A stretch of 64,000 nt of DNA, from positions 1-64,000 of the forward strand of contig NZ_VNWP01000014.1 of assembly GCF_014224355.1 (NCBI RefSeq), read 5' to 3'. This DNA comes from Synechococcus sp. BSA11S (lineage in GTDB: Bacteria; Cyanobacteriota; Cyanobacteriia; PCC-6307; Cyanobiaceae). The notes under the pieces were generated by a model. The model searched no databases and was not told the DNA's origin. It worked only from the letters and a program-made list of their open reading frames with translations. How positions within the stretch are numbered: the stretch's first letter is position 1; every line of letters begins with the position of its first letter. Positions 13,881 through 19,982 of the stretch are shown in pieces. Position numbers and translations under genes: made by a program.

Positions 13881-14603
13881 ATGCACCGGCAACCGATCGT
13901 GATCCTCGGGGGCTTCCTGATCAGCCCGGCGGCCTACGCCCCGATGACCGCCCGGCTCGAGCAGTTGAGTGGTCAGCCGGTGCAACTGGTGCCCGTGGGC
14001 AAGGCCGAATGGTTGCTCACGGTGTTCGCCTTTGCCTGGGCGGGGATCCTCGATCGGGTCGCGACCGCCGCTGCCGAGCTGGCCTTGCAGTCGCCCACCG
14101 GCAAGGTGACGCTGATCGGACACAGCTCCGGCGGGATCATGCTGCGGCTCTTCCTGGATGACGCCCCTTTCCAGGGTCGGCGTTACGACGGCAAGGCCCT
14201 TGCCGACACCCTGGTGATGCTCGGCAGCCCCCATACGGCCTTGAAGGCCACGGTGCTGCGCAAGATGGTGCAGCGGCGTCTGCCGGGTGCGACTTTCGCC
14301 GATCGGGTCAGGTATGTCTCGGTGGCGGGAGACCTGGATCTGGACACGGCCACCCCCATGGCCCAGCGCCTGGCGCCCACGGCCTACCGCAACAGCACCG
14401 GCGATGCCGCCGATCGGGGCGATGGCCTGGTGCCGGTGTCGTCGGCCCTGCTGGAGGGCTCCACCCCGCTGGTCCTGCCAGGTGTTGCCCACGGCGGTGC
14501 CTTCGGGCCCAGCTGGTACGGCAGCCCGGAGGTGGTGGAGCGCTGGTGGGCCATGGCTCAGGACGCCGGCTCCAGCAGCTCCGTCAGCGTCACGAACCGG
14601 TAG
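13881..14603 (+). CDS. Alpha/beta hydrolase (lipase-like)
   Basis: A 240-residue hydrolase starting with RQPIVILGGFLISPAAY, where the Gly-Gly stretch fits the oxyanion hole. The nucleophile elbow is GHSSGG (Ser at about residue 78). DRGDGLVPVSSALLEG supplies a plausible acid, and VLPGVAHGGAFG the catalytic histidine. This order is typical of small lipase/esterase-like cyanobacterial proteins. It starts 10 bases after the racemase-family gene and may be part of that operon. The final 46 bases overlap the 3' end of the opposite-strand polysaccharide deacetylase. The substrate is unknown. Confidence 0.78.
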   Translation: MHRQPIVILGGFLISPAAYAPMTARLEQLSGQPVQLVPVGKAEWLLTVFAFAWAGILDRVATAAAELALQSPTGKVTLIGHSSGGIMLRLFLDDAPFQGRRYDGKALADTLVMLGSPHTALKATVLRKMVQRRLPGATFADRVRYVSVAGDLDLDTATPMAQRLAPTAYRNSTGDAADRGDGLVPVSSALLEGSTPLVLPGVAHGGAFGPSWYGSPEVVERWWAMAQDAGSSSSVSVTNR

Positions 14604-15301
14604 CCGCGCCGGCGCAGCTCGGGCACGATCCGGCGCAAGCTCTCCAGGCTGCGGCTGCTCAGGGCCGGTGTGTCATGCAGCACCAGGATGCCGCCAGGGT
14701 GGGCGTTGATACGCACAAACCAGCGCACGAAGCCAAGGGGTGGCCGGAAGGTGTCCCAGGGAAAGATCGAGCCCAGCACCAGCTGGTAGCGGCGTGAGGC
14801 GAGCCTTTGGAGCATGGCCTGGTGGAACCAGCCCTGCCCGGGACGGCACCAGCGCCAGGCCACCGGCTCGGGAGAGGCAGCCCGCTCGATCGCCTGTTCC
14901 GTGTCGTTGAGCTCACGCAGGAAGGTGGGCCCATCGAGGGCGCCCGAACGCTCGTCGCGCCAGAGGTGGTTGCCGATGTGGTGCCCCTGCTGCAGGGCCC
15001 GGCGTGGGAAGTGCGGGTCGTTCTTCAGGTGGGAGCCGATCAGAAAGAAGGTGGCTGGCACCTGTAGCTCCCGCAGCAGCTCCAGGAGGGCCTGGGAGCC
15101 GGGGCCACTGGGGCCGTCGTCGATGGTGAGCGCCAGTCGCTTCTGCGTGCCCGATCCGCAGAACACCACCCTCGGGTGGATCGGCGCGAGCACGCCGCGG
15201 ATCACCCACGAGGGCAGAAGCACGACAAGGGCCAGAACGGCCAGCAGCAGAGAGATGACGATCGGGTGGAACGCCACGGGATCACCCAGGAACGATGACA
15301 C
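14558..15301 (-). CDS. Polysaccharide deacetylase family protein
   Basis: A 247-residue protein with one N-terminal membrane segment (about residues 12-35) and a NodB-type deacetylase domain. LALTIDDGPS carries the metal-binding Asp pair, GHHIGNHLW holds the His-x-x-x-His type motif (here with Asn in one position of the usual SHTxxH), and GGILVLHDTPA holds the C-terminal His-Asp. Such enzymes remove acetyl groups from peptidoglycan or other surface sugars, probably on the outer face of the inner membrane. It is convergent with the hydrolase at 13881 and divergent from the hydrolase-subtilase fusion. Confidence 0.85.
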   Translation of the reverse strand: MSSFLGDPVAFHPIVISLLLAVLALVVLLPSWVIRGVLAPIHPRVVFCGSGTQKRLALTIDDGPSGPGSQALLELLRELQVPATFFLIGSHLKNDPHFPRRALQQGHHIGNHLWRDERSGALDGPTFLRELNDTEQAIERAASPEPVAWRWCRPGQGWFHQAMLQRLASRRYQLVLGSIFPWDTFRPPLGFVRWFVRINAHPGGILVLHDTPALSSRSLESLRRIVPELRRRGYRFVTLTELLEPAS

Positions 15302-15422
15302 CAGCCGCAGGTCGTGGGCTGCAACGGGCTGGTCTGGCTATGGCTGTACAGGCGGCAGCAGGAGGGGAGAAACAGCCCTCACCCCATGGTGCCGAAACCG
15401 TCCGCTTCTGCTCAGTGACGCC

Positions 15423-17843
15423 ATGGCCACCTCGAAGAAGCCATCCCCCCGCAGCCACAGCCCCCACTCCACCGCCGCCAGCTCCGCCGCAGCCCCCGCA
15501 GTTGCACTCGCCGCTGCCCGCACCGTGATCTACTGCCACGGCATCTCCAACATGCCCCCTGAGCGGGAGCTTCGCTCCCAGTGGGACCAGGCGCTGTTTG
15601 GCGCCGACCAGGGGGAGCGGACCCGGATGGCCTACTGGGTCGACCGCGAGCGCTATCCCCAGGCGGCGAGCGTGTCGATCCGCTCGATCGGGGAGGAGAA
15701 CGCTCTGCTGCAGCCCCAGGCCGAGGAGCTTCTGGAGGACTCGATCCGCCACAGCGACTCGCCGGAAGACTCCCAGGCGTTCGTGGACGCCATGACCGAG
15801 CAGCTGCAGCAGGCCGCCTTCACGGCAGCCCAGGAGGGAGCACCCTTGGGAGGGCCCTCGGCCTTGTCGATGGAGGCCAAGGGGCTGTGGAGCCCGGTGA
15901 CGGCCCTGTTCACCAAGGTGTTCATGGCCGATGTGAACGACTTCCTGTTCAACAAGGCCAAGCGCGCCCGGATGGTGCAGACGGTGAAAGATCGCCTGGT
16001 CACCGGCGGGGGCCCCTTCGTGGTGATCGGCCACAGCCAGGGGAGCATGGTCACCTATCAGGCCCTGATCGAGCTGGCCCAGGACCTCCCCGAGCTGGAG
16101 GTGGACCTCTTCCTCACCATCGGCTCTCCCCTGGGGTTGCCCCAGGTGACGGATGTGATGCACAAGTGGCACGGCAGGACGCTGCCGATCCCCGCTTCGG
16201 TGAAGCGCTGGGTGAACATCGCCCAGGACGGCGACATCGTCTGCCTGGATCAATCCCTGGCCGATGAATACAGCAGCAGCGGCAAGCCAGCCGTGGTGGA
16301 TGAACGGGTGGAAGGGCTGGTGTGGCCGCCCAGCAAGGCCCACGCCGCCGACCGCTACCTGAGCCGCCGCGACACCCAGATCACGGTGATGGGCGCGGTG
16401 GATCGCTCCCGCTTCCAGCCTGTGAGCCCCGTGACCGTGGCCCGCAACCTGGCCGACTCCCTCGATGACGACGCCAGGAAGCGGCGGCCCGTGCTGATCG
16501 AACTGATCGACCGCGCCCCGGTCGGCGCCCTGCAGGCCGCTGGGGCAGAGGGGCGCGAGGCCTCCCTCCAGGCCACCAAAGCCAGGGTGCTGGCCTGGAT
16601 CGACAGCCACGTGCTGGGCGGTCCGATCACCGCCGACAGGGTGTTTCTGGAAGACCAGCTGGAGCACTACGTGGCGGTGAACCTCAACCGCGCCGAGGTG
16701 GAACGCCTGGCCTCCGACCTCAGCCAGCACTACGGCGCCCCCTCCCCGGCCGTGTATCGGATGTTCAGCAACAGCAGGAAGCGGGCCCTGATCCGCCACT
16801 CCATCCACACGGTGCAGGCCCGCACCGCCCAGCTTGGCTACAACGCCATGGGGCAGGGCATCACCTGGGCTGTGCTCGACACGGGCATCGACCGTCACCA
16901 CCCCCATTTCCACAACCCGGCCTTCGCCGCAGGCGGCCCCATCGCCGCCGACTGGGACTGCACCAGCCGCGGAGCCGTACAGCCCGCCAGTGGCAACGAC
17001 CCCAACGGCCACGGCACCCACGTGGCGGGGGTGATCGCCGGGGGGCTGAAGCTGGCTGGCGGCGCTGAGGGGGCCGGGGAGATCGAGATGCTGGGCATGG
17101 CCCCGAAGGCTCGCCTGGTGACCTACAAGGTGCTGGCCGACAACGGCAGCGGCTACGACGCCTGGATCCTCAAGGCCATCGACCACATCTGGCACCAGAA
17201 CCAGAGCGGCCGCCGCCTGGCGATCCAGGGGGTGAACCTCAGCCTGGGGGGCGCCTTCGATCCAGCCAGCTTCGGCTGCGGCGATTCGCCCCTGTGCGCC
17301 TCGCTGCGGCGGCTGGTGCGCCAGGGCGTGCTGGTGGTGCTGGCGGCTGGCAACGAGGGCAGCGGCGACATCGTGGTGAATGGCTCCAGCTCCACCCGCT
17401 CCTTCGATCTCTCGATCGGCGATCCCGCCAACCTGGAGGAGGCGATCGCCGTGGGCTCGGTGCACCCCACCCTGCCCCACCGCTACGGCACCTCCTACTT
17501 CTCCTCCCGGGGCCCCACGGCCGACGGACGTCTGAAGCCCGACGTGGTGGGCCCGGGGGAGCGGATCCTCTCGTGCCGCAGCAACAGCGACCCCAGCCGC
17601 GGCTCCGAGCCCGACCAGGGCAAGAGCCTTGATGAGCTCTACATCGCCCTGTCGGGCACCAGCATGGCGGCGCCCCATATCTCTGGCCTTCTGGCCGCCT
17701 TCCTGTCGGTACGCACCGAGTTCATCGGCTATCCCGAACGGGTGAAGCAGGTCCTGCTGGAGCACTGCACCGACCTCAAGCGCGATCGCTATCACCAGGG
17801 GGCGGGACTGCCCAACCTCTCGAAGATGTTGCTGGAGACGTGA
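15423..17843 (+). CDS. Fusion of alpha/beta hydrolase and subtilisin-like serine protease
   Basis: An 806-residue protein in two parts. Residues about 30-300 look like a lipase-type alpha/beta hydrolase: a strand TVIYCHGISN, a nucleophile elbow GHSQGS near residue 203-208 and FLTIGSPLGLP. Residues about 470-800 form an S8 peptidase with Asp486 in LDTGID, His530 in GHGTHVAG and Ser747 in SGTSMAAPH; the oxyanion Asn lies in AAGNEGSG. All catalytic residues of both domains appear present. No signal peptide is obvious; a low-complexity Ser/Ala/Pro stretch covers residues 5-30. The ATG at 15423 follows a 120-bp space, and starts farther upstream lie opposite the deacetylase gene. The combined role is not known. 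A remnant of another subtilase lies 900 bp downstream. Confidence 0.88.
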   Translation: MATSKKPSPRSHSPHSTAASSAAAPAVALAAARTVIYCHGISNMPPERELRSQWDQALFGADQGERTRMAYWVDRERYPQAASVSIRSIGEENALLQPQAEELLEDSIRHSDSPEDSQAFVDAMTEQLQQAAFTAAQEGAPLGGPSALSMEAKGLWSPVTALFTKVFMADVNDFLFNKAKRARMVQTVKDRLVTGGGPFVVIGHSQGSMVTYQALIELAQDLPELEVDLFLTIGSPLGLPQVTDVMHKWHGRTLPIPASVKRWVNIAQDGDIVCLDQSLADEYSSSGKPAVVDERVEGLVWPPSKAHAADRYLSRRDTQITVMGAVDRSRFQPVSPVTVARNLADSLDDDARKRRPVLIELIDRAPVGALQAAGAEGREASLQATKARVLAWIDSHVLGGPITADRVFLEDQLEHYVAVNLNRAEVERLASDLSQHYGAPSPAVYRMFSNSRKRALIRHSIHTVQARTAQLGYNAMGQGITWAVLDTGIDRHHPHFHNPAFAAGGPIAADWDCTSRGAVQPASGNDPNGHGTHVAGVIAGGLKLAGGAEGAGEIEMLGMAPKARLVTYKVLADNGSGYDAWILKAIDHIWHQNQSGRRLAIQGVNLSLGGAFDPASFGCGDSPLCASLRRLVRQGVLVVLAAGNEGSGDIVVNGSSSTRSFDLSIGDPANLEEAIAVGSVHPTLPHRYGTSYFSSRGPTADGRLKPDVVGPGERILSCRSNSDPSRGSEPDQGKSLDELYIALSGTSMAAPHISGLLAAFLSVRTEFIGYPERVKQVLLEHCTDLKRDRYHQGAGLPNLSKMLLET

Positions 17844-18742: not shown

Positions 18743-19130
18743 ATGGCACCAACACAAGATTTCATTCTTCTCAGGGATCGCAGTCAGGGCCCGCGTTACA
18801 CAGGATTGTCCACGCCCTCTCTCCCTTACCCAGGCCTGGAAAGCTTCGGACTCGCCCCTGCCGCTGAGCTGCCGCCTGAGCCCACGATCACGCTGGAGCG
18901 CCTTGATGCTGCGGATCTGCGCGAAGCAGCCCGGGATCCCGATGTGCTCGGGGTTGCCCGCTCGATGCCCACGCGTCTGATCGAACCGATGGGCGCAGCT
19001 GCGGCCACCACCAGTGCCGGTGAATGCCGCCGCCGTGCAGGCACGCCTCCGGGCCATGGCCACCCTGGTCGGCCTGGCGCCGAATCAGGACGTGCTCGAC
19101 CGGGGCGACGGACTGGTGCAGGCTCCTTGA
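18743..19130 (+). pseudogene. Remnant of a subtilase-like gene, middle deleted
   Basis: The first 85 codons (MAPTQDFILLRDRS to ARSMPTRLIEPM) look like the N-terminal propeptide region of a subtilisin-like protease, with the inhibitor-like stretch LREAARDPDVLGVARSMPTR. The reading then shifts to the frame starting near 19014 (VPVNAAAVQARLRAMATLV to GDGLVQAP and stop at 19130), which resembles the last residues of such proteases. The entire catalytic core with Asp, His and Ser is missing, so this is best read as an internally deleted gene. The family reading rests on short stretches and should be treated as moderate. It lies near an intact subtilase fusion at 15423-17843. Confidence 0.5.
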
Positions 19131-19193
19131 TGGATCCTTTCATGGAGCCCCCGGACCCGCCGGGATCGCTTCAGGCGAGCAGCGAGCGGCGTG

Positions 19194-19982
19194 ATGCTGG
19201 GTAGGTTGCGCTGGTCAGCGGCCCCGCTGCTGGCGGCCGTGGGCGGGCTGGCTTCGGCTTGCAGCGTGGTGCCCTCCCCTCGGCCTCTGCTGGTGGCGGC
19301 CGCTGTGAGCCTGGAGGATCCCCTGCGGGAGATCTCGGCGGCTGCCCCCAGTCAGTCCGGCAGTCCCGTGCAGTTTCACCTCGCCTCCTCCGGCGCCCTG
19401 CAGCAGCAGATCCTGCAGGGGGCGCCGGTGGATGTGTTCATCTCGGCCGGCAAGCGTCAGATGGACGCCCTGCAGAGCGCCGGCCTGCTGCTGCCTGGCA
19501 GCCGCCGGGAGCTGTTCAGCAATGAGCTGGTGCTCGCGGTTCCGCTCCGTTCAACACGACGAACCCTCGCCTTCCAGGATCTGGCCCGGCCTGATCTGCG
19601 CTCGATCGCCATCGGTGATCCTTCGGTGCCTGCCGGTGATTACGCCCGCCAGGTGCTGACGACCCTTGGGCTCACGGCTGCGGTCTCCCCCAGGCTGGTC
19701 CCCCTCGGCTCGGCTCGTGCCGTGGCCCGGGCGGTGGCCGACGGCCGGGTGGAGGCCGGTCTGATGTACCGCACCGATGCCCGGGCGGAAGAGGGCCTGC
19801 TGATCACCGCTGTGGCACCCGCCGGCAGCCATGCGCCGATCCGCTATGCGGGTGCCGTCCTCAAGATCAGCCCTGCCTCCGCCGCGGCCCGGGCCTACCT
19901 GCGCACCCTGGCTGAGCCCGCCGCCATGAACAGCTTTCGCCGCCATGGTTTTGGAGTTCCTGAGCCATCCCCCCAGCCGTGA
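19194..19982 (+). CDS. modA: Molybdate ABC transporter substrate-binding protein ModA
   Basis: A 262-residue periplasmic binding protein of the ModA family. It has a signal sequence with a possible lipid-attachment cysteine in LASAC, and then LLVAAAVSLEDPLREI, the ModA N-terminal block that contributes oxyanion ligands. FHLASSGALQQQILQGAPVDVFISA and VPAGDYARQVL are further family blocks. It binds molybdate (or tungstate) for import and eventual molybdenum-cofactor use, such as nitrate reductase. The ATG at 19194 is preferred over the GTG at 19191. The stop overlaps the modBC start (GTGA), so the two are coupled. Confidence 0.92.
   Translation: MLGRLRWSAAPLLAAVGGLASACSVVPSPRPLLVAAAVSLEDPLREISAAAPSQSGSPVQFHLASSGALQQQILQGAPVDVFISAGKRQMDALQSAGLLLPGSRRELFSNELVLAVPLRSTRRTLAFQDLARPDLRSIAIGDPSVPAGDYARQVLTTLGLTAAVSPRLVPLGSARAVARAVADGRVEAGLMYRTDARAEEGLLITAVAPAGSHAPIRYAGAVLKISPASAAARAYLRTLAEPAAMNSFRRHGFGVPEPSPQP

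Follow-up and report, generated by a model that had tools for sequence, protein, structure and literature searches.

A subtilase fused to a lipase-like hydrolase in Synechococcus sp. BSA11S: a candidate two-enzyme effector with relatives in four phyla

The question raised by this locus is what a bacterium does with a lipase-like and a subtilisin-like catalytic centre on one and the same chain. The gene concerned encodes 806 residues and belongs to Synechococcus sp. BSA11S, where it lies in the 64,000-nucleotide stretch analysed here (contig NZ_VNWP01000014.1 of assembly GCF_014224355.1, positions 1 to 64,000), which we refer to as the window. An initial annotation of this DNA had described such a protein, and the frame, the length and both motifs proved to be as it gave them; that a single polypeptide carries two catalytic centres is close to certain. 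Our best explanation, which falls just short of an even chance, is that the fusion works in the cytosol as an effector made of two enzymes, the S8 protease controlling, or acting with, the lipase-like hydrolase on the same chain. The parts of this explanation differ in strength: functional coupling of protease and hydrolase is probable, a role in defence or programmed arrest is evenly balanced, and activation of the hydrolase by proteolysis is a tentative proposal.

From its amino end the protein consists of an alpha/beta-hydrolase half, a pre-catalytic region and an S8 peptidase half (Table 1), with the motifs GHSQG (residues 203-207), DTG (at 486), GHGTH (529-533), AAGN (641-644) and GTSMAAP (745-751). 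The C-terminal half belongs to the S8 peptidases: Pfam Peptidase_S8 (PF00082) covers residues 477-794 with E = 1.3e-46, the Asp-His-Ser triad and the oxyanion Asn are present, and this half is predicted to be a peptidase with a complete catalytic set. An alignment of 24 fusions (A4, comprising 18 cyanobacterial rows and 6 from other lineages, that is the window and 23 of 26 related loci; L037, which is frameshifted, was omitted, as were two near-copies, L036 and L044) shows H39, G40, S205, D271, H307, D486, H530, N644 and S747 identical in 24/24 rows, so that neither half lacks catalytic residues in the alignment and the triad and the GHSQG nucleophile are as intact as the initial annotation had read them. 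A second alignment, A1, took 15 of the 27 fusions (the window and 26 related loci), whereas A4 took 24. Across nine cyanobacterial pairs the ratio of non-synonymous to synonymous substitution rates (dN/dS) is 0.15-0.32 in the hydrolase half, 0.04-0.21 in the S8 half and 0.14-0.69 in the region between; purifying selection maintains both halves, and the middle region is the loosest.

The absence of a clear signal peptide or propeptide had also been remarked upon at the outset. No signal peptide is apparent in the first 30 residues, which hold three Lys or Arg and no Asp or Glu, with a best 19-residue hydropathy of 1.38 (composition and hydropathy, no dedicated predictor applied); in several non-cyanobacterial relatives this N-terminal tail is rich in Lys, Arg and Ala. 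For the propeptide the outcome is divided: the Pfam scan gave no I9 match in the pre-catalytic region, but a stretch at ~340-470 that precedes the S8 domain looks like one, and is modelled, at low confidence, as strand-helix-strand-helix-strand. The reading frame itself stays open upstream to 14814, which would make a protein of 1009 residues; we discarded this extension because relatives do not share the upstream part, and the portion common to cyanobacterial relatives starts at the ATG at 15423.

The hydrolase half is less readily recognised from its residues, Pfam giving sub-threshold matches to alpha/beta-hydrolase families over ~180-310 (Abhydrolase_6, 0.0028); at E ≤ 0.01 such similarity is seen in 19/20 members of the family, the window protein standing below the gathering score. 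An AlphaFold2 model of this half, built from 20 family members, has a mean predicted local distance difference test (pLDDT) score of 69.5, with core blocks mostly at 80-95. In VIA-align its best match is lysosomal phospholipase A2 (4x97; Z 12.8, root-mean-square deviation (rmsd) 3.7 over 185 residues), and places 1-6 are all taken by lysosomal phospholipase A2 and LCAT (Z 12.4-12.8, 183-187 residues, rmsd 3.6-3.8); the 50 matches listed, mostly lipases and esterases, all lie within 1.7 Z of the best. Foldseek was weaker than VIA-align, with two matches at E ≤ 0.001, TM-scores of 0.2-0.45 among the matches listed, and the Nir2 lipase-like domain as its best match (best E 1.1e-4), whilst a profile of the N-terminal half searched against PDB sequences placed Group XV phospholipase A2 at the top (E = 0.0054). 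On the model, this half is predicted to have a serine-hydrolase fold, with a catalytic triad and an HG oxyanion loop, the roles of Asp271 and His307 being assigned by order and conservation. The nucleophile follows the HG loop at a distance of 166-215 residues, a stretch with little conservation over much of its length and with parts modelled at low confidence; in compact lipases this spacing is roughly 65 residues. We lean towards a lipid as the substrate, although likeness in fold to lysosomal phospholipase A2 and LCAT does not itself specify one, because they share the fold at ~16% identity and in a near tie with many lipases and esterases.

The case for an immune or suicide role is circumstantial, and comes from what the relatives are paired with and not from the genes around the fusion in the window. 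In its closest relatives the protease has as gene neighbours or fusion partners the kinds of enzyme that characterise prokaryotic conflict systems. Searches with a 13-row S8 profile matched 4/398 Pseudomonadota genomes at E ≤ 1e-45, 43/247 Acidobacteriota genomes at 1e-45 (five with E ≤ 1e-80) and, at 1e-70, 10/150 Gemmatimonadota and 3/244 Cyanobacteriota genomes, and the regions of the S8-subfamily loci were scanned with small partner profiles. Of the 23 subfamily loci, 22 have a partner (detected by partner profiles in 21 and by Pfam in one), against none of 25 control S8 loci; no partner seen is more than ~350 bp away from the S8 frame. Five of the 23 have a hydrolase fused N-terminally to S8, ten a separate hydrolase gene directly downstream of the S8 gene, six a metallo-beta-lactamase (MBL) gene (four patatin-S8-MBL sets, the patatin of L123 being a piece only, and two S8-MBL pairs), and one is the S8-TIR fusion identified by Pfam. 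Among the loci that were chosen solely for their S8 match and took no part in profile training (L142-L151), 10/10 have a partner. Pfam confirmed patatin in three (2.5e-18, 1.5e-16, 5e-17) and the MBL fold more weakly, two of four scanned being above the cut-off of one lactamase model; PADLOC matched two MBL partner proteins to LmuA (3.1e-55, 1e-50) and also to RTasMBL and Avs1a.

Some of these arrangements deserve description in their own right. Three-gene sets of patatin, S8 and MBL occur at L128 (2935-7303), L124 (2614-7263) and L150 (995-5583), with an LmuA/Avs1a-like MBL by PADLOC in L128 and L124; no sensor gene was noticed in the three, and such a set is a candidate system of its own. 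L083 (1203-5614), on the Rhizobium leguminosarum conjugative plasmid CP050566.1, encodes an S8 peptidase that ends in a TIR domain; a TIR-TM-like gene and an IS6 transposase lie nearby. At L086 (2709-6035, genome G130) a SIR2-like gene starts 3 bp after a hydrolase-S8 fusion, and a homologue of it (7.6e-78 to the L086 sequence) stands divergent beside the S8-hydrolase pair of L148. Among plasmids, the nearest S8 relatives are Rhizobiaceae proteins, ~40% identical, and in 5/5 loci examined a gene annotated as hypothetical lies 9-12 bp downstream of the S8 gene. Two of these downstream proteins, when scanned, have weak Pfam alpha/beta-hydrolase similarity, with the motifs SHGW and GHSFG, and the other three match a hydrolase profile built from the two scanned and two further genes. 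One of the Rhizobium hydrolases, P0004, was rejected as a homologue of the window hydrolase half; because BLASTP found nothing significant, the Rhizobium and window hydrolases are treated as separate families.

Relatives of the hydrolase half point to a second kind of protease. The N-half profile at E ≤ 1e-5 matched 23 places in 9/150 Gemmatimonadota and 12/239 Pseudomonadota genomes, of which the three strong ones (E < 1e-100) are S8 fusions; the remainder are cousin hydrolases, with open frames of 304-420 codons in 14/20. One cousin, L164 (1135-2958, G1230, from the Gemmatimonadota search), is fused to a caspase-type peptidase (Peptidase_C14, 1.5e-25); a plasmid search with it gave 90 records, none reaching 80% coverage. 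With the S8 fusions and L164, the hydrolase group is thus joined to two unrelated protease kinds, the caspase once among those seen.

The fusion recurs intact in distant bacteria, and its presence is patchy. A scan of genome contigs found it at 24 loci (20 cyanobacterial, 2 Gemmatimonadota, 1 Acidobacteriota and 1 Pseudoxanthomonas), uninterrupted in 23 of them, the exception being L037 of Synechococcus sp. WH 5701, with stops in the matched frame; there (L037/L087, G005) a frame change in the S8 part splits the protein over two frames, by decay or sequencing error. In the Pseudoxanthomonas family 26/198 genomes match and 24 of the 26 cover both halves, whilst G238 is without the first 96 positions and G202 has the hydrolase half only. 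The window's order gave 23/299 genomes, 22 full-length and one a remnant (G013), the window's genus 7/9 including its own genome, with one of the seven split, and in the window's phylum one of the three S8-half matches is again the G013 remnant. This last is a decaying copy (L088), a remnant of 204 residues beside lpxD (by eye). The initial annotation had offered a break of the fusion in all relatives as grounds for abandoning its idea, and the counts above show the opposite.

In a tree of the S8 domain a branch with support 100/100 sets all 18 fusions sampled (18/18) apart from the other sequences, in a clade that covers Cyanobacteriota, Gemmatimonadota, Acidobacteriota and Xanthomonadaceae-type bacteria, and the tree joins them with S8-hydrolase gene pairs at 97/96. 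Because all sampled fusions form one clade over four phyla, a single origin followed by horizontal spread is the simplest reading. Phage records gave 18 partial matches and plasmid records 119 with a match, none covering 80% of the query in either; two fusions occur in viral contigs, at contig edges beside a tmRNA. In Xanthomonadaceae-type loci (L045, L046, L043, L055, L084) the fusion or its remnant adjoins the tmRNA in 5/5 tested, L084 being a hydrolase-only remnant, and no tRNA or tmRNA lies beside the fusion in six other loci tested. Mobile DNA commonly inserts at tmRNA. At L045 a phage-type integrase (by eye) stands on the opposite side of the tmRNA.

How the two enzymes might work together can be set out as follows. 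The fusion protein would be synthesised in an inactive, proenzyme form; phage or some stress would act as the trigger that switches on the subtilase, which would cut the poorly conserved inter-domain region and/or the long stretch before the hydrolase nucleophile; the cut would free or unlock the hydrolase, which may attack membrane lipids or other esters, and the cell would be arrested or killed. We favour a proenzyme because of the precedent in PMC12799240 and because the long pre-nucleophile stretch and the variable 340-470 region are plausible cutting sites. A wider proposal is more doubtful, namely that the protein is a self-contained switched lipase, one gene being triggered protease, substrate and killer, and that it belongs, as one branch, to a larger immune family centred on subtilases and not yet described, the partner slot of which holds alpha/beta hydrolases, an MBL nuclease with or without patatin, or TIR or SIR2-like enzymes, cousin hydrolases having recruited a caspase instead. 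We place the fusion with the protease-effector pairs, and there is a fair chance that it forms a distinct protease-lipase class, for which the family, with one gene, four phyla and several natural variants, is a concrete candidate. If true, proteolytic activation would apply to effectors that cut lipids as well as to those that cut DNA, a parallel to the protease-triggered membrane death that exists in eukaryotes.

Several points weigh against this two-enzyme effector. No sensor domain was recognised in the fusion protein, and the full-length model is poor (pLDDT 55.5), with domain contacts and gating not visible in it. L125 is the sole subfamily locus of the 23 without a partner, and training of the partner profiles (L081, L082, L126 and L127 for the hydrolase; L124 and L128 for patatin; L123, L124, L128 and L129 for MBL; L086 for SIR2) overlaps the loci counted. 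The controls (L098-L122) are all Acidobacteriota with flanks of ≤1.5 kb, and TIR was not properly sought in them because the TIR profile, which was not relied on, is faulty (one training row out of frame). The SIR2-like proteins score below (L086) or at (L148) the Pfam cut-off, with a weak PADLOC match of 0.005 (L086 only), and 20/23 places with the hydrolase are without S8, none being found in the flanks of 17 cousin-hydrolase loci. Beside the window fusion no convincing defence gene was found by Pfam or by PADLOC on 10 neighbouring frames, of which one matched, an ABC transporter protein (mad3 3.5e-23, mad8 3e-5, AriA 9e-4) that is taken as ABC-ATPase cross-matching; nor was an MBL gene found among the scanned window neighbours. 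The cyanobacterial neighbours of the fusion resemble housekeeping genes, and over the 27 loci compared no gene accompanies it throughout, the commonest neighbour cluster occurring in 12. The speculation of the initial annotation about a self-activated defence-type effector survives in part, favoured circumstantially by the relatives' partners (hydrolase, patatin, MBL, TIR, SIR2-like) and the caspase-fused cousin, and not by the genes at the window itself.

These same neighbours are what an ordinary intracellular housekeeping enzyme would have, one serving, for example, the turnover of storage lipids, thioesters or proteins, with both activities in one degradative pathway. Around a dozen Cyanobium-type loci share leuB, lpxD, phosphoribulokinase and the deacetylase upstream of the fusion, the downstream side varying (neighbour gene names were given by eye from translations, the window's own excepted), and purifying selection and the want of an adjoining defence gene at the window fit such a role too. 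We nevertheless consider it unlikely, given the patchy presence (7/9 in the genus, 23/299 in the order, 3/244 in the phylum), the decayed copies L037/L087 and L088, the one clade over four phyla, and the pairing of protease relatives with immune-type enzymes, some on plasmids. A rather improbable variant of the effector idea is that protease and lipase are two parallel effectors which both attack cell components once triggered, neither activating the other, the fusion just co-locating them. The chemical diversity of the S8 partners, the position of the TIR partner beyond the C-terminal end of the protease, which suits a multi-hit attack as well as activation, and the intactness of both active sites would all agree with this, but the variable pre-catalytic region and the long pre-nucleophile stretch are plausible cleavage targets, and the protease-nuclease pairs treated in PMC12799240 act by activation.

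Weak similarity of the hydrolase half to the type VI-type lipase Tle3 (7/20 family members at E ≤ 0.01, below the curated cut-off) raises the idea of a delivered antibacterial effector, a lipase with an attached protease. The window protein scores 14.4 and 16 bits against a cut-off of 27, which is on a par with other hydrolase families, and identity with the type VI secretion effector Tle3 was rejected on these scores; in addition no constant companion gene, as an immunity gene would be, was found over the 27 loci (secretion genes elsewhere in the genome not being searched for), and we regard delivery as highly improbable. That the gene is a product of chance or an error of gene calling, through an overlapping or read-through frame, is practically excluded, since the long antisense frame at 15282-17795 (-, 837 residues), of a kind common in GC-rich coding sequence and rejected as the real gene, stands against a sense frame that is kept in four phyla with identical catalytic residues and has a coding pattern of guanine-plus-cytosine content (0.68/0.49/0.91 by codon position).

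The genes next to the fusion are distinct from it (Table 1). The small hydrolase recurs near the fusion in 3/26 other loci and a similar deacetylase gene (by eye) in 11/26; further window neighbours are a short-chain dehydrogenase and a solute-binding protein with ABC permease and ATPase. At 18743-19204 (+) a frame of 153 residues from an ATG, starting MAPTQDFILLRDRSQGPRYTG, has an N-terminal lead that resembles, by eye, another kind of subtilase and is then lost; it has no Pfam or PADLOC match, and is possibly the remnant of a second peptidase gene.

Table 1. Positions in the window of the fusion gene, its parts and two adjacent genes
Feature	Coordinates	Strand	Remarks
Small separate alpha/beta hydrolase, not part of the fusion	13881..14603	+	Weak PGAP1/Palm_thioest matches
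Polysaccharide deacetylase, not part of the fusion	14558..15301	-	Pfam 1.6e-20
Fusion gene: hydrolase, pre-catalytic region and S8 peptidase	15423..17843	+	806 residues
Residues 1-30, N-terminal tail: low-complexity, weakly basic, no clear signal peptide	15423..15512	+	
Residues 34-330, alpha/beta-hydrolase half: HG 39-40, Ser205 in GHSQG, Asp271, His307	15522..16412	+	
Residues 340-470, candidate propeptide/linker, least constrained	16440..16832	+	Putative function
Residues 475-806, S8 (subtilase) domain: Asp486, His530, Asn644, Ser747	16845..17840	+	

Our literature search, with thin coverage of subscription journals and preprints that leaves absence from print unshown, returned no description of a lipase-subtilase fusion or of this subtilase family, and no paper with both PADLOC and subtilase; a link to retrons gave nothing relevant and was dropped. 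The PADLOC model 'subtilase' (PDLC03014) matches the window protein (E = 2.9e-60) and 7/7 relatives tested (9.2e-38 to 8.6e-58), but covers the protease and the preceding region only. IetS of the ietAS anti-phage system is also an S8 defence peptidase, with a partial PADLOC match to the window protein (1.9e-11); at 23.5 bits against an NCBIfam cut-off of 900 its score is far below the curated threshold, and membership of ietAS was rejected. Alpha/beta-hydrolase, caspase and trypsin are listed among the enzymatic effector domains of bacterial conflict systems in PMC8195603, in the main text of which subtilisin, subtilase and lipase do not occur. The closest parallel is with the nuclease-protease pairs of PMC12799240, where in Hachiman and AVAST a protease cuts blocking insertions of an MBL pro-nuclease, and in Canu a caspase activates one. 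The window protein, a hydrolase with a subtilase, is not itself a nuclease-protease pair of the Avs1, Hachiman, Lamassu or Canu type: its protease is a subtilase where theirs are trypsin- or caspase-like, the partner of that subtilase, a lipase-like hydrolase, shares its chain, and no sensor is recognised. Subtilisin, subtilase, lipase and patatin likewise have no occurrence in the main text of that paper, which does note that homologues of the nuclease occur next to proteases from other families that it leaves unnamed. Some of the related S8 loci do have, like those pairs, an MBL partner matching the LmuA and Avs1a models, and as in the Hachiman, AVAST, Lamassu, DRT and Canu pairs described there, the protease gene accompanies, or is joined to, genes of other defence enzymes and is swapped between contexts.

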